Positions 9,802-27,945 of a DNA stretch of 34,258 nucleotides are shown in pieces (positions within the stretch are counted from its first letter, which is position 1; every line of letters begins with the position of its first letter). The stretch is taken from positions 1-34,258 of the forward strand of contig CANFBW010000033.1 of assembly GCA_947444925.1 (NCBI GenBank), given 5' to 3'. Below the pieces are notes generated by a model. That model had not been told where the DNA came from. It saw only the letters and a program-made list of their open reading frames with translations, and ran no database searches. The DNA is from Flavobacteriales bacterium. Its GTDB lineage: Bacteria > Bacteroidota > Bacteroidia > Flavobacteriales_C > GCA-002722245. Position numbers and translations under genes: made by a program.

Positions 9802-9808
9802 CATTTCG

Positions 9809-9883
9809 GGCGAAGTATGGGACTCGAACCCATGACCCTCGGTACCACAAACCGATGCTCTAACCAGCTGAGCTAACATCGCC
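9809..9883 (-). tRNA. tRNA-His (anticodon GTG)
   Basis: On the minus strand this 75-nt sequence folds as a full cloverleaf. The D arm is GCTC/GAGC and the anticodon stem TCGGT/ACCGA encloses TTGTGGT with anticodon GTG (9846-9848). A five-base variable loop and a T arm ATGGG/CCCAT with loop TTCGAGT follow. The encoded extra G (position -1, base 9883) opposite C73 (base 9809) is the identity pair for histidyl-tRNA synthetase. The acceptor stem has a U5-U68 mismatch but is otherwise paired. CCA is not encoded (the next bases read CGA), so it must be added after transcription. Confidence 0.96.
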
Positions 9884-17477: not shown

Positions 17478-18230
17478 ATGCAAAATAAAAAAGGAATAAC
17501 GGCAAAAGAAAACCACGAAGAAAAAGCATTTTATGAAGGACCGCATTCGCGCTGGCGCGAATTTCTTTTTTTAAATACAGTGTTATTTGACTTCATAAAA
17601 AGTTTCAGAACCTTACACTTTCTTGGCCCATGTGTGACCGTATTCGGCTCAGCTCGATTCAATGAAGACCACAAACATTACCATCAGGCTCGCGCTATGG
17701 GGACCGCAATAGCCAACAGCAATTTTACAGTAATTACAGGAGGTGGTCCAGGTATTATGGAAGCGGCAAACCGAGGTGCAAAAGACGCAAAAGGAAAATC
17801 CGTTGGATGCAATATCGTGCTGCCGCGCGAGCAAAAGCACAATCCTTATTTAGATGAATGGGTCGATATCAAATACTTTTTTGTGCGCAAAGTATTGCTT
17901 ACCAAATACTCCCATGCCTTTGTTGTTTTTCCGGGTGGTTTTGGCACACTCGACGAATTCTTCGAGTCTGTTACACTGATACAAACAGGGAAAATAGCAC
18001 ACTTCCCGGTAGTGGTAATGGGTCTCGAATACCACTCCAAAATGCATGACCACATCCAGTTGATGGTCAATGAAGGTACTATCGCACCAAGAGACCTTGA
18101 TCTGGTGCTCTTCACTGACTCTGTTGAAGATGCCATGGCACACATCAACAAGCATGCAAGCAAACGATTTGACGCTGCACCAAGAAAAAAATTCAGACCA
18201 TTGCGCGTACTATGGGAAAAAAAATCATAA
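17478..18230 (+). CDS. LOG family phosphoribohydrolase (TIGR00730)
   Basis: A 250-residue cytoplasmic protein of the LOG (LONELY GUY) family, often misannotated as lysine decarboxylase. Family members hydrolyse nucleoside 5'-monophosphates to base plus ribose 5-phosphate. The phosphoribosyl-binding motifs GGGPGIMEAANRGA (88-101) and PGGFGTLDE (152-160) are intact, including the catalytic Glu of the second. The N-terminal 45 residues extend beyond the minimal LOG fold, as in many Bacteroidota members. Six bases separate it from asnB, so it is probably the last gene of the copA-glycan operon. I see no clear terminator after it. Confidence 0.9.
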   Translation: MQNKKGITAKENHEEKAFYEGPHSRWREFLFLNTVLFDFIKSFRTLHFLGPCVTVFGSARFNEDHKHYHQARAMGTAIANSNFTVITGGGPGIMEAANRGAKDAKGKSVGCNIVLPREQKHNPYLDEWVDIKYFFVRKVLLTKYSHAFVVFPGGFGTLDEFFESVTLIQTGKIAHFPVVVMGLEYHSKMHDHIQLMVNEGTIAPRDLDLVLFTDSVEDAMAHINKHASKRFDAAPRKKFRPLRVLWEKKS

Positions 18231-18744
18231 TAGTGCCAACATATTTCTTCACTGCCAAACGTTTAAAATTGTCCTATTACTTCTACAACTGTGTTCTCAA
18301 AAGGCTAATTCAAATCTCCAATCTACTGTTCGTTTAGAAAATTAAAAGAAGAAACGGAAATCCACCAATAGCTCTTTCAGTGCTAAAAACAGAAGCACTT
18401 GAATCCTGTAAATACCCATACAGAATATTGTCGACTTAGCGCTCATCAACGACAGCGATCTCTTTATCCATGAATACAATTTTCGTTCATTGCATGACAA
18501 AATACATTCTGCAATGGAAGGAAATGGAACGTCAAAGATCAACCTGAACAATATCCACCATCACTTCAAAAAAACGCATCAATACAAACACTAAAATTCT
18601 GGGGTCAAAAAAAACTATCATCAAGAAGAAGCGCTGCGACTTCGACACTTTTACTACCCAACTATTCAATTTATAAGGCTGGCACAATATTTTCTTGTAT
18701 CTACACGAGGATAAATCATAAAAGAGCTTTTGTTCAGCACTAAA
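18231..18744. other. Gene-poor gap, possibly holding an FtsH relic
   Basis: About 510 bases between the LOG gene and the FtsH-like gene with no supported intact gene. In the same reading frame as the FtsH-like gene, 18418-18594 encodes a stretch (QNIVDLALI ... EYNFRSLHDKIHSAMEG) that weakly resembles the C-terminal lid of the FtsH AAA+ domain, interrupted by stops on both sides. Minus-strand open frames here lack protein character. A promoter for the downstream genes is expected in this gap but no convincing TAnnTTTG element was found. Confidence 0.35.
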
Positions 18745-19461
18745 ATGGCAAAAATGGGTAAGAACAGAATAACGAAACAAAACACCAATAACACTTGGTT
18801 TCATTTTGCCTTAATTTTACTGCTACTTCTCTTTATTTTCTTACCACTAAGATCCGAAAAAAATAAAAAAAGAAGAATCATTAACTATCATAAGGCGGCG
18901 CGTACCGTGGTGCGTTGGATGCTCAAAAATGTTGATCCCATAAACAAAGCATCCATCATCCCAACAGTGAAAAACATTGGCGCGCCTTGGTGTTTGCTCG
19001 AAGAAAAACAAATCACTATACGACAGCGATTTGAATACAGAATGAGTGCAACACTCGGCTGCAGAGCTGTTAAAGAACTGAAATTTTATGAAATATCAAC
19101 GGGAGCACAGTACGATCTCGAAAAAACCACCAACCAAGCGCACATGATGGTTAACCAACTCGGCCTACGCAACATGATTGGTCATGTTAGTTTTCACGAC
19201 TCAAGTGGTATGCATGAAAAAAGTTTTCAAAAACCATATCGTGAAGCAACGGAAAATCTCATCAAGAATAAAGTACGCGTTTTAATTGACTTCTGTTGTT
19301 CCAAGGTCATGATGCTATTGATAAAAAACAAAGACAAACTCTATCAATTGCCCCAATTACTAATTACGATGGAGGTCATCGCCCACACAAATTTAGAAAA
19401 CATTTTGGGCAAAAGAGTATTCTACGAAAGTGGCATTTTTACTAGTATTCATCAACAATAA
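18745..19461 (+). CDS. Orphan FtsH peptidase-M41-like protein with degenerate active site
   Basis: A 238-residue protein with one membrane helix (about 18-36) followed by a basic stretch and a domain that follows the Bacteroidota FtsH C-terminal peptidase almost end to end. Matching landmarks are WMLKNVDPINKASIIP, the WCLLEEKQI stretch, EISTGAQYDLEK (116-127), HDSSGMHEKSFQKPY, and the terminal NLENILGKRVF. The whole AAA+ ATPase domain is absent. The zinc site HEXXH reads His49-Lys-Ala-Ala-Arg53: the catalytic Glu and second His ligand are lost, while the first His and the third ligand Asp124 remain. It should therefore be proteolytically dead. The start could also be the ATG at 18754 or TTG at 18730. 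The response regulator gene starts 11 bases after its stop. Decaying pseudogene is the alternative. Confidence 0.75.
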   Translation: MAKMGKNRITKQNTNNTWFHFALILLLLLFIFLPLRSEKNKKRRIINYHKAARTVVRWMLKNVDPINKASIIPTVKNIGAPWCLLEEKQITIRQRFEYRMSATLGCRAVKELKFYEISTGAQYDLEKTTNQAHMMVNQLGLRNMIGHVSFHDSSGMHEKSFQKPYREATENLIKNKVRVLIDFCCSKVMMLLIKNKDKLYQLPQLLITMEVIAHTNLENILGKRVFYESGIFTSIHQQ

Positions 19462-19472
19462 ATCTTTAAAAA

Positions 19473-20531
19473 ATGACAAACACAATTTTGATCATCGACG
19501 ACAATGTGGAAGTTTGTGGAAACATTTCCGAACTTCTAAAGTTAGCAGGTTATCAAACTTTTACAGCTCAAAATGGAAAAAGCGGATTACAACTTGCGCA
19601 CGAGCACAAACCCAATTTGATATTGTGTGACATTGTGATGCCAGAACTCGACGGATATGGGGTATTGCGTGCTTTAGACAATATACCTGACATGGAACAC
19701 GTGCCATTTATCTTCATGACTGGGAAATCTGACAAATCAGATTTCAGACGAGGTATGGATTTAGGCGCAGATGATTACTTCATGAAGCCATTCAACGGAG
19801 ACGATTTACTAAAAGTAGTGGCTACTCGTTTGAAAAAGAAAGGCGCAATACAATCAGTAGAAAACCACGAACAACAATGGAACAAATTGCTTCATAGTCC
19901 AAAATCATCAAATAGCATCAATAGTCTACAAGAGCATAGAACGATAAAAAAATTAAGAAAAAAAGACATGCTTTTTATGGAAGGTGATTCCTGCAATTTC
20001 TTGCATTTCATCATTTCAGGGAAAATAAAAATATTCAAATCAAATGATTTTGGAAAAGAATTCATAATAAACATATACAAGAATGGTGATTTTCTGGGGC
20101 ATATTTCTTTGCTCGAAAACAGCAAACACAAAGAATCGGCAATGGCAATTGAAAACACAGAAGTAGCTTTAATTCCAAGAGAAGATTTTTTTCAAGCTTT
20201 ATATTCGAACCAAGAAGTAGCGATGAAATTCATAAAACTAATGTCAAAAGATTATGCAGAAGCGGAAGATAAATTATTAAAGTTAGCTTACGATTCTGCA
20301 AGAAAAAGGGTAGCGGAAGCCATACTATATGTGTCGAAAAAACACAACCATTCCGACAGCGACAATGTATCTTTTAGCATTGACCGCGAAAACATTTCAT
20401 CACTTTCAGGCATCTCACCAGAATCTGTAAGTCGAAATCTCAGCGACCTCAGAGAAGAAGGCTTGATAGAAACAGGAAATGGTACTCTAAAAATTCTCAA
20501 CGTTAAAAAACTTATGACAATTAAGAATTAA
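19473..20531 (+). CDS. Response regulator fused to CRP/FNR-type DNA-binding module
   Basis: A 352-residue transcription factor with three parts. The receiver domain (about 4-118) has acidic Asp9-Asp10, the phospho-acceptor Asp53 in LCDIVMPELDG, a T/K switch region and Lys105 in DDYFMKPF. A cyclic-nucleotide-binding-like beta barrel spans about 145-260 (DMLFMEGDSCNFLHFIISGKIKIF). The CRP-type winged helix-turn-helix covers about 275-345, with ISSLSGISPESVSRNLSDLREEGLI as recognition region. No iron-sulfur Cys cluster is seen, so it is not a classical oxygen-sensing FNR. No histidine kinase is nearby. It is probably co-transcribed with the FtsH-like gene (11-base gap). By position it is a candidate regulator of the following stress-type genes. 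Confidence 0.9.
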   Translation: MTNTILIIDDNVEVCGNISELLKLAGYQTFTAQNGKSGLQLAHEHKPNLILCDIVMPELDGYGVLRALDNIPDMEHVPFIFMTGKSDKSDFRRGMDLGADDYFMKPFNGDDLLKVVATRLKKKGAIQSVENHEQQWNKLLHSPKSSNSINSLQEHRTIKKLRKKDMLFMEGDSCNFLHFIISGKIKIFKSNDFGKEFIINIYKNGDFLGHISLLENSKHKESAMAIENTEVALIPREDFFQALYSNQEVAMKFIKLMSKDYAEAEDKLLKLAYDSARKRVAEAILYVSKKHNHSDSDNVSFSIDRENISSLSGISPESVSRNLSDLREEGLIETGNGTLKILNVKKLMTIKN

Positions 20532-20597
20532 TAGTGCAAAACAACTATTCAAATATGGACCATTAAACCTCTGCGAGAAACCAATAAAAAAAATGTC

Positions 20598-21008
20598 ATG
20601 AAAAAAATTGCTTACGGATTAATGGCAGGAGCAATCATGCTATTGCTCTCTCTGTTAATAGGAATATTGACCCATCTCGTACTTCCTGAAATAGAAAGCG
20701 AATATAAAAATACTAGACTTTTTCGTCCGTGGTCAGATCCAAGGATGTGGTGGTTCTTTGTTCACCCCTTTTCTTTAGCCTTAATTATGGCTTTTGTGTG
20801 GTCACCAACAAAAGACCTTTTTAAAGACAAACGATACACTGAAAGAGGTCTGCGCTTTGGCTTTCTATTTTGGATCATCTCACTACCTGGTCTAATGATG
20901 TCCTATTCCACTTTTCCACTTACTCTTATGATGACTTTCGCTTGGGCTCTATCAGGATTGATTCAAGTCCTATTTGGCGGATACTTCTTTTCAAAAACGT
21001 TGCAATGA
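20598..21008 (+). CDS. Uncharacterised four-helix membrane protein, copy 1
   Basis: I do not recognise a named family. The 136 residues contain four hydrophobic segments (about 5-28, 52-68, 85-105, 108-130). A conserved loop after the first helix reads RPWSDPRMWWFFVHPF (Trp45-Ser-Asp-Pro48). The next gene is a clear paralogue sharing this motif and the block RFGFLFWIISLP as well as the C-terminal GYFFSKTLQ. The start ATG is 66 bases after the response regulator stop, so it may belong to the same transcript. The acidic stretch EIESEYKNTR between helices 1 and 2 is also shared. Membrane location is supported by sequence; function is unknown. Confidence 0.75.
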   Translation: MKKIAYGLMAGAIMLLLSLLIGILTHLVLPEIESEYKNTRLFRPWSDPRMWWFFVHPFSLALIMAFVWSPTKDLFKDKRYTERGLRFGFLFWIISLPGLMMSYSTFPLTLMMTFAWALSGLIQVLFGGYFFSKTLQ

Positions 21009-21076
21009 CCACCTTATAACAAATACGAAACAACTGCTGTAAATAAACTTCCTAATTAAAATAGGATAGAAATAAA

Positions 21077-21520
21077 ATGAGTATTAATGTAATGAAATAT
21101 CATTTTAAAAAAATTCGAATAGCTATTTTGACTGGCGTTATTCTTTCCGTTATTTCGTTTAGGCTCTCCTATTTTGCTCATTTCATTACATCAGAAATCG
21201 ATAAAGATTATAGCAATACCTGTCTTCTTCGGTCGTGGTCAGATCCAAAAATGTTGTGGTTCTTTATTCACCCCTTTGTGACATCCGTTATTATGGCGTT
21301 TACTTGGAGTTTTGCAAAAGGGAATTTTAAAGACAAATTCAACACGGAGAGTGGAGCTCGTTTTGGTCTTCTATTTTGGATCATATCCCTACCAAGTCTA
21401 TTGCTGTCATATTCAATTTTCCCTATTTCACTATTGTTGACTATCACATGGGCTATAACGGGATTGTCGCAAGCAATAGTGGCAGGATATATATTTTCAA
21501 AAACAATACAAAGAGGATAA
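21077..21520 (+). CDS. Uncharacterised four-helix membrane protein, copy 2
   Basis: A 147-residue tandem paralogue of the preceding protein with the same layout. It has a first helix at about 15-38, EIDKDYSNTCLLRSWSDPKMLWFFIHPF with the WSDP motif at 54-57, then FKDKFNTESGARFGLLFWIISLP and a terminal GYIFSKTIQ. The N-terminus is about ten residues longer and basic (KYHFKKIR); ATG 21092 would give a shorter form. Conservation is concentrated in the WSDP loop and helices 2-3, which suggests a shared functional surface while the first helix diverges. The gene lies 68 bases after copy 1. Function unknown. Confidence 0.75.
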   Translation: MSINVMKYHFKKIRIAILTGVILSVISFRLSYFAHFITSEIDKDYSNTCLLRSWSDPKMLWFFIHPFVTSVIMAFTWSFAKGNFKDKFNTESGARFGLLFWIISLPSLLLSYSIFPISLLLTITWAITGLSQAIVAGYIFSKTIQRG

Positions 21521-21544
21521 TCTATCACATTCTTTTACATCAGT

Positions 21545-21560
21545 TCAATTGATGACGTCA
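21545..21560. promoter_or_regulatory. Tandem palindromes upstream of the Pro-rich gene
   Basis: Two perfect eight-base palindromes, TCAATTGA (21545-21552) and TGACGTCA (21553-21560), directly abut each other about 52 bases before the ATG at 21612. They could be an operator for a dimeric regulator; nothing in the sequence proves this. Confidence 0.25.
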
Positions 21561-21611
21561 GCCGCCATATGAAACGAAAACGTGCATCAAATAAACATTA
21601 AAAAACACATT

Positions 21612-21791
21612 ATGAATATGGATACCAGACTTCAGAAAGAAGATAAACCTGAAATAATTTCCCCGCCGGACTCACCAATACTGACTCCGAAGGAACAGGA
21701 AATCAGTCCCATGCCCAATGAAAATTCTCCGGCAATGCCAAAGCCAGAAATACAACCAGCTATACCTCCTGATTTTAAACCCATGCCTTAA
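21612..21791 (+). CDS. Small proline-rich protein
   Basis: A 59-residue hydrophilic protein with no signal peptide or membrane segment. Its second half is a run of proline/glutamate phrases (SPPDSPILTPKEQEISPMP, PKPEIQPAIPPDFKPMP), so it is likely disordered. I recognise no function. Reality as a gene is supported by an open frame of strongly biased composition, an ATG start with an A-rich leader, and a strong terminator hairpin directly after the stop. A longer version starting at GTG 21582 is possible. It sits between the membrane-protein pair and the BON gene. Confidence 0.6.
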   Translation: MNMDTRLQKEDKPEIISPPDSPILTPKEQEISPMPNENSPAMPKPEIQPAIPPDFKPMP

Positions 21792-21792
21792 C

Positions 21793-21831
21793 AAATCAAA
21801 AGAACCGCAGTGCCTTCGGTTCCTTTGATTT
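21793..21831 (+). terminator. Rho-independent terminator after Pro-rich gene
   Basis: A 15-base-pair stem (21793-21807 with 21817-21831) with a single A-C mismatch and a nine-base loop, beginning one base after the stop codon. The AAATCAAA/TTTGATTT ends make it potentially bidirectional. Confidence 0.8.
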
Positions 21832-21877
21832 AAAATACAGTACAAATAATTTCCTCAATCATTGTAAGTCCAAAAAT

Positions 21878-21899
21878 AAAGCGCCGCAATTAGCGCTTT
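21878..21899 (-). terminator. Terminator of the BON-domain gene
   Basis: AAAGCGC and GCGCTTT form a seven-base-pair stem with an eight-base loop. On the minus strand it lies ten bases downstream of the BON gene stop and is followed by TTTATTTTTG, as in an intrinsic terminator. Confidence 0.7.
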
Positions 21900-21909
21900 T
21901 CAAATTGTA

Positions 21910-22575
21910 TTAGGCAAAAACTTGTAAATCAATTTCAATCTTATTTTCAACTTTGGTCACTCCAGGAGCCAACCAAGCGGTTCTCTCCGCTTCTTTTTTT
22001 TCAGCATAGGAACGCACTTTCCCTGAAAGCGAAACTTTTGACCCTTCTACCAAAACATTCACTTTATCACCATCTACAGTGGCACTGCGGTGAAAAGCAG
22101 CCGTGATTTTTCTCTTTATTTCTGATGGTACCAATTTGGGGATAAGTTTGACATTATTCAAAACACCGACTACTCCGATTAAATCCTTCACCATACTTTT
22201 TACAGCATTCCTTTGAAACTCCCATTCTACCTCCCCTTCCAGAGTAACCCAACCGTCTTCTACTTTTATCTTAATTTTATCTTCCTGCATTGCACTATGC
22301 CATTTTAAAGCATTAAGTACCGCTTCAGCTATTTCGCCATCACTCTTTTTACCGTTGAAATCTAGCTTTACCTCAATGTCTTCCGCCACGGCTTTGACAC
22401 CAGCAACCCTTTTGGCCGCTTTTTCAGCCGATAATTTTTTGCTGTAACTATCAACTCTACCCGAAAGAGTAACAACACCATTTTTTACAGCAACACCAAT
22501 TTCAGTAGCCTTTAATAAAGGCTCCCAATTAAGCTCATCCATTACGTCTTTTTGAATTTCAACATCTGTTTTCAT
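21910..22575 (-). CDS. Triple BON-domain protein
   Basis: A 221-residue protein built of three consecutive BON domains (about 4-70, 79-147 and 150-218), each with the pattern of helix, conserved VxNGxVTLSGxV-like strand pair, helix and V..V.N.I strand. Examples are VKNGVVTLSGRV, VEDGWVTLEGEV and VEGSKVSLSGKV. BON modules occur in stress-induced proteins such as OsmY and are thought to bind lipids or membranes. Unlike OsmY there is no signal peptide, so a cytoplasmic location is expected. It is divergent from the universal stress protein gene, sharing a 218-base intergenic region, and has its own terminator. The stress role is inferred from family and context. Confidence 0.9.
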   Translation of the reverse strand: MKTDVEIQKDVMDELNWEPLLKATEIGVAVKNGVVTLSGRVDSYSKKLSAEKAAKRVAGVKAVAEDIEVKLDFNGKKSDGEIAEAVLNALKWHSAMQEDKIKIKVEDGWVTLEGEVEWEFQRNAVKSMVKDLIGVVGVLNNVKLIPKLVPSEIKRKITAAFHRSATVDGDKVNVLVEGSKVSLSGKVRSYAEKKEAERTAWLAPGVTKVENKIEIDLQVFA

Positions 22576-22704
22576 AAAAATTTATTTTTAATAGGTTAGT
22601 AAAGCAAATAAATCTAAAACAGTTGATTAGATACATGACTCAAATCAAAAACAGATGTACATTTCATCAATACTCAATTTCATCTGATAAGATATTTGAT
22701 TCGT

Positions 22705-22720
22705 TGTGATGGCTGTCATT
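22705..22720. promoter_or_regulatory. CRP-like half-palindrome between BON and usp genes
   Basis: TGTGA, six bases, TCATT resembles the CRP-type consensus TGTGA-N6-TCACA in eight of ten core positions. It lies 74 bases before the usp ATG in the divergent promoter region. It is a candidate site for the nearby CRP-fused response regulator, but a sequence of this quality can occur by chance. Confidence 0.3.
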
Positions 22721-22793
22721 TATTCTGTTGAAATTGTTTTGCTTCTTTATTGTGCGGGGGATATTTTGACCTTGTACCTTCAATGCTTCACTT

Positions 22794-23615
22794 ATGAAAA
22801 CTATCCTCGTTCCCATTGACTTTTCAAAAAATGCGCACAATGCACTGACTTATGCCATTGGCATGGCACATAAAAAAATTGCGCAACTCTTACTATTGCA
22901 TGTTTGCCAACAAAAAGAAGGAAATACAACTAGAGCAACAAAACAAAAACAAAACAAATTAGAAGTTTTATGCGACAGCATAAACAAACTACAAAAAGTG
23001 CAATGTTCAGCGCAAATTGAAGAAGGAATCGTTACCGATTGCATAGAAAAAACGACTGCGGCACAAAAAGTTGATTGGCTCGTAATGGGTACAAAAGGAG
23101 CAAAAGGCATTAAAGAAATCTATTTTGGAAGCAACGCCAAAAGAGCCAGTCAAAAAGCGCATTGCCCTGTGATCATCGTTCCAAAAAAAGCGCAATACAA
23201 AGGTATACGAAACATCGCTTTCTATTGCAGTTACTATGACGTCGAAACATCACTTTCAACATTAATGCAAATCATTGAACTCGCAGAATTTTATACTGCG
23301 GATATTTTTGTTTTTCAAATCAACGACGAAGAATGCATTATGCAAGAAGAAAAAAAGCTATTCGAAAATTTCAAAAAGAAGGTACATAGCGCAACTAAAT
23401 TCAAAAATATAGAGTTTCATCTCATTTCTGGAAACGACGACGAAGCCAGACTAGAATTTATTTTACATGAGGCAAGCAGTGACCTCCTCGCTATTTCAGC
23501 AAATAACAGACTCATGATGGAAAAAATATTTGGCGAAAAAACAAAACACAAAGCTATCAATCGTCGACAGATTCCGCTATTGGTCTACAACAGCATGCAG
23601 CAATCATCCCATTAA
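22794..23615 (+). CDS. Universal stress protein (tandem UspA-type)
   Basis: A 273-residue cytoplasmic protein of two UspA-like domains. The first starts with ILVPIDFSKNAHNALTYA and contains the ATP-binding pattern G-2x-G-9x-GS (Gly99, Gly102, Gly112-Ser113). It ends with CPVIIVP, so it probably binds ATP. The second domain (about 147-270) keeps the fold (ISANNRLMMEKIFGE, IPLLVY) but lacks the glycine pattern, so it probably does not bind nucleotide. A weak promoter (TTG, 22-base spacer, TACCTTCA) ends about 18 bases before the ATG. The gene is divergent from the BON gene and converges on the glycogen gene with a 21-base gap and no clear terminator. Confidence 0.92.
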   Translation: MKTILVPIDFSKNAHNALTYAIGMAHKKIAQLLLLHVCQQKEGNTTRATKQKQNKLEVLCDSINKLQKVQCSAQIEEGIVTDCIEKTTAAQKVDWLVMGTKGAKGIKEIYFGSNAKRASQKAHCPVIIVPKKAQYKGIRNIAFYCSYYDVETSLSTLMQIIELAEFYTADIFVFQINDEECIMQEEKKLFENFKKKVHSATKFKNIEFHLISGNDDEARLEFILHEASSDLLAISANNRLMMEKIFGEKTKHKAINRRQIPLLVYNSMQQSSH

Positions 23616-23636
23616 GCACATTTGTTCATTTTTATT

Positions 23637-26600
23637 TCATATCCATTTGAGCAGTAACAAGTCGTGTTGATGCGCAAGGTCAACGTTTTTAGGATAAATG
23701 CGAAAACCATATTCATACACACCAGACTGATCAATGGGAACTGCAGTTGAAAAAGTCAATTTATTTTTCACCAAGCCCCCCCCCGACAATTGTTTCTTAA
23801 AAATTATTTTATTGAAATCAGCATCTCCTACCCTCTTATCGATAAACACCACCTCAACGCCAATGTCATCTGGAAAAAGTTTTCCAATATCAACAGTAAG
23901 ACTCGGCTGAAATTCTTTTCCAAGTGGAAACGGAAGTTTGGTAGCACCAACAAAATCTGGTGAGACGACACTTAAACTGTTCCAATCCATACCCACCCTG
24001 TTTTTCCATCGAATAAGCGATTTCACCAGTGCAAAATGATGAGCGCCCATTTTTTTATTTCTTTCAAAAAGCGGAAAATAAAATTTCTCTTGGTATTCTT
24101 TAAGCATTCGATGGGTATTGAAATAAGGAGCAATGCCAGCAATCGAATGTTTCATTTTCTCAACCCATCTATCCGGAATACCTTTGCTGTTTATTTCAAA
24201 AAACAAAGGTGCTATTTGCTGCTCAAAAATTTGATACAGTACATCTGCATCTGCTTGATCTCGCACATCGGGCACACTGTAATTCGCAGGCAAAGCCCAA
24301 CCGGAATCCGCTTTGTAGGCTTCTGCCCACCATCCATCCATCACGCTGCAATTGAGCACACCATTCATCACTGCCTTCATGCCACTGGTTCCCGATGCTT
24401 CATTTCCTGCAATGGGCAGATTGAGCCAAACATCAGCCCCTTCAGTCATTATTTTCGCCAATGCTATATCGTATCCTTCTAAAAAAATGATGTGATTTTT
24501 AAAGCGATCTTGTTGCGAAACCTCCACCACTCTTTTAAGCATTTCTTGTCCCTCGAGGTCCTTTGGGTGCGCTTTTCCTGCAAACACAAAAACAATAGGC
24601 TTCGATTTATTAGAAAGCAAAGCTGCCAATCGATCCAAATCATGAAACAACAATGTCGCACGTTTGTAAGTTGCGAATCGGCGCGCAAATGCGACAATCA
24701 GCGTTTGCTCGTTTAAAATATGTTCTTCATCAAAAGGAAGATCCGCCCCTTTTGCCACTTGCAGTTTGATCCTTTGTATTAATTTTTTTTTCAACTGCAA
24801 ATGAACATTCCACAATACGCTGTTCTCTACTTTGTGTATTTTTTGCCACAAAGCGCTTGTTGAAAGTTGTTGCGTGAATATTTTTTCAAAATTATCAGCG
24901 TACAATTGCTGCCATTCATCGGCAGTCCAAGTGGAATAATGCACACCATTGGTAACATGACTGATACTCAACTCTTCCTCCGCATAGCCTTTCCAAAGAG
25001 CAGAAAATATTTTGCGAGATACTTTTTCATGCAAATCACTCACTCCATTAGTTTCTTGTGACAATCGAGTCGCCAAATAACTCATTGAAAAAGTTTCATC
25101 AGAGTCAGCAACATTTACTTTTCCTAGTGCAAGAAAGCGTTCCCAAGAAATATTCAACAAATTACAGAGGTACGAAAGGTACACCCTAAGCAAATTTTCA
25201 TGAAAGCGATCGTGTCCCGCAGGTATTGGCGTATGCGTTGTAAAGAGCGACGAAGATCGCACCATTTCAAGGGCCTCATCAAAAGATAAATTTTGCTCTT
25301 GCACTAAAAACAAAATTCGCTGTAAGCCGGTAAACGCGGCGTGGCCCTCATTGCAATGAAAAATATCAGCTTCGATATTCAATGCGCGCAGTATTTGCAC
25401 GCCACCAATACCAAGCAACATTTCTTGTTTGAGACGATACTCCTCATCACCGCCGTACAAATTTTGCGTAAGGGTGCGGTCCTCAATACTATTTTGCTGA
25501 ATATCAGTATCCAGTAAATAAAGGGGAATACGTCCCACTTCTACTTTCCATACCTTTGCTAAAACGGTGCGACCTGGCAGCGTAAGCGCAATTTTAATCC
25601 ACTGTTTATCGCTGTCGTACACCGGCAACAAAGGAAGATTGGTGAATTTTTGTCTTTCTTGAATTGCATGTTGCGCACCATCAACAGCTACTTCTTGCTT
25701 GAAATAACCACTTCTATAAAGCAATCCAACGGCAACCAAATCGGCACCACTGTCGCTGGCCTCCTTTAAATAATCACCTGCCAAAATACCCAAGCCTCCC
25801 GCGTACAAATGCAAGGTAGCGCAAACACCATACTCCATGCAAAAATAGGCGACTTTGGGTTGATTTTTAGCCAAATTGAATGTCATATATAACTCAAAAT
25901 CGGCCTGTACTTTATTCAGTCTTAAAATGAAAGGAATATTTTCTTCAAGATTTTCCATTTTCACAAAATCCAAAGCATTTAACAGTGCCGTTGGATTGTG
26001 ATCCACCCTTTGCCAAAGATCAGCATCAATGCTTGCAAAGAGTTCACGAGCTTCGTTGTTCCACGACCACCACATGTTTTTCGCCAATGTTTCCAGCGCT
26101 TTTAATTTTGCTGGAAGTATTGGCTGCACAAACATTTTTCGCCACACAGGTTTGTTTTCTTCTTCCACATTTGTCTCCGAATACATATCGATTTCATGCA
26201 CTTTCGGCGCATGAACAAACTGTGCAGCGCGACCTGCTGCTTTGTTTAAGGCAATCGCGAATGCTCTCTTATAATTGCCAATAACCTGTTTCCACGAAGT
26301 TATTTTAAACAGTTCATAAGCGGCATCAGTGCTACTTTCATTGCTTTGTGCTACGCTAAATTCTTTGATCGTGTTGACTATAGCTTGCGTAAGCTCAAGG
26401 TCATTGTCATCATTTCGATGGAGTACAGCAATGCCATCCGAAATACCTTCCGTCTTTCCTTTCATAAAACTTCCAAACCCACTTAAATCAGTGGTAATAG
26501 TGGGCACATGAAAAGCCAAACTTTCTTGTGGAGTGTATCCCCAGGGTTCATAATAAGAAGGGAAAACCGATAGATCGAAACCGATCAATAAATCGTAATA

Positions 26601-27860
26601 ATGCATATTAAAAATACCATCATAGCCATCCATATACGCTGGAACAAAAATAACCTTGGCTCTTTTGCTCGTGGTATTATCGAGGAGATTTCTGTTGATG
26701 CGATTGAAAATCAAATCATTATGAATACCTTGCAAACAATGAGTTAAACAATTGGGGCCCTCTAATTCAGAAGCCAATGACTTAAACATTTTCTCGAGCA
26801 AATCTTTTCGTGGACCCGTATTGTGTGCAGGCACAAAAATAAAAGCAATGAGTTCCTTCCCCTCCTCCTCAGCGTTGAGTGTTTCCAATGCATCAATAAA
26901 TAAATCGATGCCCTTGTTGCGAAATTCGTAACGACCACTTTGTATCAAAAGCAAGGTGTCATCGGCAAATTTTTGGCCCAATAAAACTTGCGCCACTGAT
27001 AGTAATTTCTGTCGGGCCAATGCCCTTTTTTCTTTGTATGCAGAAGCCGAAGGAACTATCGCTTCGTCAAAACCATTGGGTGTTATCACATCGGGCGCTT
27101 TCGCTAAAAAATGAATGCATTCCTGTTCAGTGATCGAACTCACTACCGTAAAGCAATCCGCTGAAGCAGCGGATCTGGTTTCCATTGAATGTTTTGCAAC
27201 AACATTGAAATCGCGAGCGGTGGTGGCAGGAAGGTATTCTTGCATTTTAGAATAAAACGGCCGCCCACTGCCGGCAATACATCGCCCCAAAATAGTAGCG
27301 TGCGTAGTAAAAACAGTGGCGATTTGTGGAACCCTTTCTTTAAGGTAAAGCAATCCAGCTCCGCTCAGCCACTCGTGAAAATGGGCAATAATTTTATCGC
27401 TAAAAGTGAAGTAGTAATGGTAAAAACATTCTATTACTTTTCCAGCAGCATAGGCAAAAAGTGTAGGTTCAATATAGTCCCAACCTCCAGATAAGGAGTC
27501 AACTTGATGCTCCATCCATAGCTTTTTAAAAATGTCGTCTTTGTTTTTGTAAAACGGAGAAAAGTCAACCAATAAAACGATGGGCTTTCCCGCTATTTTC
27601 CACCGACCCACCTTTACATTCAAACCAATGCTTGCCGCATGCTGCTTCCACGACGAGAACATTTTTTTGTCCTCCATAAATTCGCTGTGCTCCGCTGCCC
27701 CCTTATAGATATCGGGACCAATCATTAGCAGTTGATCTTCGCGCTGACGCTCAATCGTTAATACTTTAGTACTAATGACGGTATGGATACCACCCACTTT
27801 ATTACAAACCTCCCAACTGACTTCAAAAATATAGTCGGGATCACGTTCTAACTCTAGCAT
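23637..27860 (-). CDS. Glycogen synthase (GT3) / alpha-glucan phosphorylase (GT35) fusion
   Basis: A bifunctional protein of about 1407 residues. Residues about 1-560 resemble the eukaryotic-type GT3 glycogen synthase: FEVSWEVCNKVGGIHTVI, AHFHEWLSGAGLLYLK, FTTHATILGRC, and the acceptor-end PSYYEPWGYTPQE. The rest, from about 580 (KALETLAKNMWWSWN, a DUF3417-like start), is an alpha-glucan phosphorylase of the TIGR02094 type. It has YFCMEYGV, FHCNEGHAAF, ATYKRA, and the pyridoxal-phosphate site EASGTSGMK with Lys1162. It would thus combine glycogen synthesis and breakdown in one chain; such fusions are known in Bacteroidota. ATG at 27860 was preferred over the in-frame GTG at 27875. No frameshift is seen. 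Confidence 0.92.
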   Translation of the reverse strand: MLELERDPDYIFEVSWEVCNKVGGIHTVISTKVLTIERQREDQLLMIGPDIYKGAAEHSEFMEDKKMFSSWKQHAASIGLNVKVGRWKIAGKPIVLLVDFSPFYKNKDDIFKKLWMEHQVDSLSGGWDYIEPTLFAYAAGKVIECFYHYYFTFSDKIIAHFHEWLSGAGLLYLKERVPQIATVFTTHATILGRCIAGSGRPFYSKMQEYLPATTARDFNVVAKHSMETRSAASADCFTVVSSITEQECIHFLAKAPDVITPNGFDEAIVPSASAYKEKRALARQKLLSVAQVLLGQKFADDTLLLIQSGRYEFRNKGIDLFIDALETLNAEEEGKELIAFIFVPAHNTGPRKDLLEKMFKSLASELEGPNCLTHCLQGIHNDLIFNRINRNLLDNTTSKRAKVIFVPAYMDGYDGIFNMHYYDLLIGFDLSVFPSYYEPWGYTPQESLAFHVPTITTDLSGFGSFMKGKTEGISDGIAVLHRNDDNDLELTQAIVNTIKEFSVAQSNESSTDAAYELFKITSWKQVIGNYKRAFAIALNKAAGRAAQFVHAPKVHEIDMYSETNVEEENKPVWRKMFVQPILPAKLKALETLAKNMWWSWNNEARELFASIDADLWQRVDHNPTALLNALDFVKMENLEENIPFILRLNKVQADFELYMTFNLAKNQPKVAYFCMEYGVCATLHLYAGGLGILAGDYLKEASDSGADLVAVGLLYRSGYFKQEVAVDGAQHAIQERQKFTNLPLLPVYDSDKQWIKIALTLPGRTVLAKVWKVEVGRIPLYLLDTDIQQNSIEDRTLTQNLYGGDEEYRLKQEMLLGIGGVQILRALNIEADIFHCNEGHAAFTGLQRILFLVQEQNLSFDEALEMVRSSSLFTTHTPIPAGHDRFHENLLRVYLSYLCNLLNISWERFLALGKVNVADSDETFSMSYLATRLSQETNGVSDLHEKVSRKIFSALWKGYAEEELSISHVTNGVHYSTWTADEWQQLYADNFEKIFTQQLSTSALWQKIHKVENSVLWNVHLQLKKKLIQRIKLQVAKGADLPFDEEHILNEQTLIVAFARRFATYKRATLLFHDLDRLAALLSNKSKPIVFVFAGKAHPKDLEGQEMLKRVVEVSQQDRFKNHIIFLEGYDIALAKIMTEGADVWLNLPIAGNEASGTSGMKAVMNGVLNCSVMDGWWAEAYKADSGWALPANYSVPDVRDQADADVLYQIFEQQIAPLFFEINSKGIPDRWVEKMKHSIAGIAPYFNTHRMLKEYQEKFYFPLFERNKKMGAHHFALVKSLIRWKNRVGMDWNSLSVVSPDFVGATKLPFPLGKEFQPSLTVDIGKLFPDDIGVEVVFIDKRVGDADFNKIIFKKQLSGGGLVKNKLTFSTAVPIDQSGVYEYGFRIYPKNVDLAHQHDLLLLKWI

Positions 27861-27945
27861 AATTGATTGCCACACTGAAAAAAAGCGTAGCCCAACAAGG
27901 TACGGTCAACGCTGTGCCGCAAAAATGACAGACCTCAATTGCATT

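Follow-up and report, generated by a model that had tools for sequence, protein, structure and literature searches.

Can the peptidase domain of an FtsH protease remain an open gene once its ATPase motor and its zinc site are both gone, and if so, what keeps it open? The question is raised by an ORF on a contig of a Flavobacteriales bacterium, of which we analysed 34,258 nucleotides (the window, by which we mean this whole stretch). We read the ORF, with a probability of about 0.45, as a presumably translated but non-proteolytic vestige of a second FtsH, whose frame would be kept by its place in front of a regulator gene to which it may be coupled.

An orphan M41 domain on a single membrane helix

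The ORF and its parts are as follows.

18745-19461, forward strand: ORF, very probably a relic of FtsH2 (see below); ATG at 18745, 238 codons, with an N-terminal tail, one membrane helix and an M41 domain
18793-18849, forward strand: membrane helix, residues 17-35, similar to the first membrane helix of FtsH2 (profile score, pairwise alignments, hydropathy)
18850-18885, forward strand: junction of 11 residues, versus about 420 in FtsH2 (periplasmic domain, second membrane helix and AAA+)
18859-19404, forward strand: M41 peptidase domain (Pfam PF01434; AlphaFold model compared with FtsH 2ce7)
18889-18903, forward strand: HKAAR replacing HEAGH, residues 49-53 (alignment with 42 FtsHs)
19114-19116, forward strand: codon of Asp124, the third zinc ligand position, kept (alignment)

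No internal stop interrupts the 238 codons, and the product matches the Pfam Peptidase_M41 profile at E=9.1e-34 over positions 4-191 of 191, with no AAA+ ATPase found in the ORF by the same search. An initial annotation of this DNA had described an M41 region present nearly end to end without its motor, and this description holds. Homology to the M41 proteases is evident from the Pfam match, from the tree and from the fold match, and the alignment to FtsH runs through 183 columns with 0 indels, far above chance. It also confirms what the annotation had said of the zinc site: the HEXXH motif is absent, HEAGH having become H49-K-A-A-R53, and Asp124 is kept within GAQYDLEK, where it aligns with the invariant Asp of FtsH.

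The layout of FtsH, with two membrane helices and a periplasmic domain, is not that of the ORF. Hydropathy places one helix, and only one, in front of the M41 domain as previously described (residues ~17-35, best Kyte-Doolittle mean 2.42), and the YH site of M41 follows after 11 residues. Helix 1 of FtsH normally directs the following sequence outward; the basic stretch KNKKRR after the helix of the ORF would favour the cytoplasm for the downstream part.

Kinship with a second FtsH

The genome's own FtsH, on contig C4, is intact (a 669-residue open frame with HEAGH) and is 41% identical to the ORF, versus 52-54% for two FtsH2 proteins (L033 and L038). FtsH2 is a second FtsH, full-length (about 650 residues) and with its active site intact, that occurs sporadically in Bacteroidia. 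In a tree of 43 M41 domains the ORF groups with the FtsH2 rows at a support of 99/100, on an end branch of 5.0 (the median being 0.18), and an origin from the genome's own FtsH is ruled out by this placement together with the 41% identity. The nearest kin are FtsH2 proteins of Bacteroidota (L033, L004, L036 and L039; up to 54% identity), which have the signatures WMLKNVDP and QKPYSEAT in common with the ORF but, unlike it, possess two helices, AAA+ and an intact HEAGH.

FtsH2 is patchily distributed, with matches in 3 of the 36 genomes of one well-sampled family at the threshold used. A scan of 84,980 species genomes returned five relatives, all of them full-length FtsH2; L033, L034 and L035 were read in their entirety, L036 and L037 as open frames of 654-667 residues. 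The truncated form was found neither in related genomes nor in the species collection, where the best matches are full-length FtsH2, in a search whose thresholds were strict beyond the 60 nearest genomes, such that a more diverged truncated form could escape it. Among ten genomes from the order none has a homologue of the truncated form, which is the outcome that the initial annotation had taken to indicate a decaying FtsH duplicate. An M41 match in a 0.5-Mb genome of the same class (G033:C1:439105-439650), lying in a 224-residue open frame, may be a split or truncated FtsH.

The membrane helix gives a clue to how the ORF arose. Against a profile of the first FtsH2 helix it scores 31.4, compared with a mean of 10.3 (sd 5.8) for shuffles that retained its three blocks (P=0.002), and alignments gave no support to the second FtsH2 helix as its source. 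From the end of helix 1 to the YH site FtsH2 has ~420 residues, and the ORF 11. We regard the ORF as very probably a relic of FtsH2, and because its helix resembles the first membrane helix of FtsH2, an in-frame internal deletion of about 410 residues is the simplest account and a likely one. Such a deletion would have joined the N-terminal tail and first helix of FtsH2 straight to the M41 domain, with loss of the periplasmic domain, the second helix and the AAA+ motor. Sequence comparison found no AAA+ or other FtsH2 remnant above noise upstream of the ORF, which is preceded by:

18231-18744, no strand assigned: gene-free stretch of 514 bp, with no detectable FtsH2 remnant

An ORF with an AAA domain on contig C29 (38% identical to FtsH2 over 225 residues) was considered as the missing AAA+ part and rejected, as it is of another kind, a 447-residue protein with what looks like a TPR-like N-terminal repeat.

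A stress-type gene block and the downstream regulator

The ORF lies within a block of genes, with a regulator directly downstream.

17478-27875, no strand assigned: inserted block comprising a LOG-like gene, the relic, the regulator, m1, m2, BON (reverse strand), Usp and a GlgP-like gene (reverse strand); absent between AsnB and the M54-type gene in G003 and G004
19473-20531, forward strand: response regulator with receiver, cNMP-binding and Crp-type helix-turn-helix domains; an orthologue directly follows full-length FtsH2 in G373

The block measures ~10.4 kb and is missing from both congeners compared (G003 and G004), where the genes run P-ATPase, glycosyltransferase, flippase, sulfotransferase, AsnB, M54-type gene, FUR, PurA; AsnB and the M54-type gene abut in G004 and have unrelated frames between them in G003. 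At the thresholds applied, the remaining genomes of the genus and family gave no regulator orthologue and neither m1 nor BON, and gain by this genome is a simpler reading than loss elsewhere. GC content is 0.36 in the stretch that starts with the gap preceding the relic and ends with m2, versus 0.42 in the left flank. Contamination can be dismissed, since PurA on the contig is 90-94% identical to that of three congeners and the contig therefore belongs to the genus. The two junction regions of the block have no direct repeats of at least 10 bases between them, and the sole tRNA (His, 9808-9882) is far from the block ends. Two BON-domain matches in another genome (L099 and L100, G014) each contain one internal TGA.

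A gap of 11 bases separates the ORF from the regulator, as the initial annotation had observed. In one genome, G373 (L068), full-length FtsH2 is followed on the same strand and in the same order by an orthologue of the regulator (phmmer E=5e-138), with Hsp20 and BON beyond, such that the window repeats the order of G373 with the relic in the place of FtsH2. This adjacency was seen in G373 only, the other regulator orthologues being without FtsH2. Several FtsH2 genes lie near Hsp20 or Usp genes, and Usp and BON stand beside regulator orthologues in other genomes. Because full-length FtsH2 directly precedes the regulator orthologue in G373, gene order indicates that the neighbour is ancestral rather than evidence of a new partnership, and the idea that the regulator is a meaningful new partner of the ORF is not supported.

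More widely, regulator orthologues (L082-L089, L068 and L071) recur across Bacteroidia beside Usp, BON, Hsp20, phosphoribosyltransferase-like and hydrolase-like genes, in what looks like a mobile stress gene set. Past the regulator, m1 (20598-21008) and m2 (21077-21520) are tandem duplicates, 52% identical, that encode small hydrophobic proteins belonging to no Pfam family. In G333 the regulator orthologue is likewise followed by an orthologue of m1 (L083, 8656-9078), so the two genes may constitute a conserved pair. In the vicinity of the ORF, scans for sigma-70 and Bacteroidota-type promoters returned no site that scored above chance.

Pseudomonas likewise has an additional FtsH on a stress island acquired by transfer, and deletions of ftsH2 from such islands are reported to be frequent (PMC10850787). 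The likeness considered here is one of setting; PaFtsH2 differs from the ORF in belonging to another phylum and in being full-length and active.

Apparent loss of FtsH constraint in an open frame

Of 50 columns invariant in 42 FtsHs the ORF has changed 18, including the E, G and H of the zinc motif, and of a further 30 invariant in FtsH2 it has changed 9; intact FtsHs in a leave-one-out control change 0-3 of such columns. At 40 of 103 variable columns it carries residues unseen in FtsH2. Its differences from L033 number 85 in all, which by rough arithmetic leaves 58 for the 103 variable columns, where FtsH2 members differ among themselves by about a third (L033 and L004 are 82% identical overall). 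On this arithmetic invariant and variable columns have changed at similar rates, and most of the constraint proper to FtsH therefore appears to be lost from the sequence. A branch codon model could not separate omega values, its estimates running to their bounds with synonymous sites saturated; the fit of omega=1 fell short by ~18 lnL for one placement of the ORF and by only ~1.6 for the best-fitting one.

The same similarity of rates speaks against a functional membrane pseudoprotease, in which a bare, zinc-less M41 fold on a single helix, having escaped from a stress-island FtsH by internal deletion and without an ATPase, would serve as a non-catalytic domain that binds or scaffolds substrates or other membrane proteins. 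We consider this reading possible but doubtful. Besides the absence of stops and indels and a codon signal like that of intact neighbours, which neutral change of 0.2 substitutions per site would be expected to lower (P~0.07), it draws on the hydrophobic core: 1 of 42 conserved hydrophobic columns has become polar versus 6.3 expected, with P~0.01 under one definition and about 0.02 under another (0.007-0.023 for these two of the four definitions), but 0.07-0.18 under two more, and all of these values weaken if fewer changes are ascribed to a neutral phase. A constrained fold is thus suggestive only; under the favourable definitions the retained hydrophobicity would point to a selected fold, and away from a frame kept by its position.

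The structure model can be read in the same two ways. AlphaFold, given 34 aligned sequences, returned a mean pLDDT of 76.7, close to the 79.6 of an intact FtsH2 domain modelled on a like alignment, with comparable confidence in the helices of both. Model residues ~61-90, a beta region by the active site, are poorly modelled, however, at pLDDT ~50-56 and almost without strands, whereas the control has strands there, partly also at low confidence. Among solved structures FtsH 2ce7 matches best (Z 18.2, rmsd 2.2, 160 aligned residues). Because the alignment guides it, the model indicates compatibility with the M41 fold rather than proving that the protein folds. A 131-residue Vibrio cholerae protein of unassigned function (PDB 5iqj_A) also matches the model, at Z 7.5, and might represent an M41-like fold that stands alone.

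That dead M41 domains can gain essential roles is known from the FtsHi proteins of plant and algal chloroplasts (PMC8197885, PMC11266112), which like the ORF lack a working zinc motif (e.g. REAAV in FtsHi4 and WAAGR in FtsHi5; PMC11266112). Unlike it they retain the ATPase, as the initial annotation had correctly stated (PMC11266112, PMC9020784), and act in a motor complex. The Arabidopsis protein VIRESCENT3 (VIR3) is, like the ORF, a membrane M41-type metalloprotease without an ATP-binding domain (PMC9166295), but its HEAGH is kept and needed for function where the ORF has HKAAR. In the searches described above no orthologue conserving the truncated form was found, which speaks against a functional protein.

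Restriction to one genome among those searched fits with a decaying pseudogene that is open by chance, as do the loss of motor and active site and the long branch, but we judge this reading unlikely. The stops and frameshifts that mark pseudogenes are absent: simulated neutrally to the same loss, the sequence acquires ~4 stops and stays free of them in only 0.75-2.5% of runs (P 0.0075-0.025), which upholds the earlier argument from the intact frame against simple decay. If indels occur at roughly a tenth of the rate of substitutions, a rule of thumb, about ten would be expected in ~550 bp, and there is none. The net charge of the product has drifted to +12 in an A-rich context, which fits decay and is marginally beyond neutral drift (P 0.02-0.05); given the A-rich background it was rejected as a sign of new function.

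The initial suggestion of a decoy or adaptor, which would join the peptidase ring of FtsH hexamers, is highly improbable. In its favour, the prediction retains the M41 fold, and FtsH subunits are able to assemble into mixed hexamers (PMC9020784); against it, the first helix of the model (14-58) continues without a break from the membrane into HKAAR, with no room for an AAA+ ring. The AAA+ ring of FtsH separates the membrane from the peptidase ring, and since the ORF product has no such spacer its domain would sit at the membrane, away from the peptidase-ring position.

A probably translated relic in front of a regulator

We therefore return to the translated vestige as the reading that we prefer. 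Its ancestor would be an FtsH2 from a stress-type gene block, shortened in frame as described above. Because motor and active site are missing, the product should be unable to unfold or cut proteins; translation of the ORF into a small membrane protein probably continues. The open frame would most likely be kept because the ORF is the upstream cistron to the Crp-type regulator, such that stops or frameshifts in it would, we propose, reduce expression of the regulator.

At this locus one can trace how the second FtsH of a patchy stress block loses both its motor and its active site and yet remains an open frame. A working protein would amount to an ATPase-less bacterial M41 pseudoprotease, a form that we did not meet in the literature searched. 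A non-functional one would show how a dead gene may stay readable through its place in an operon, which would call for caution in annotating orphan peptidase domains.
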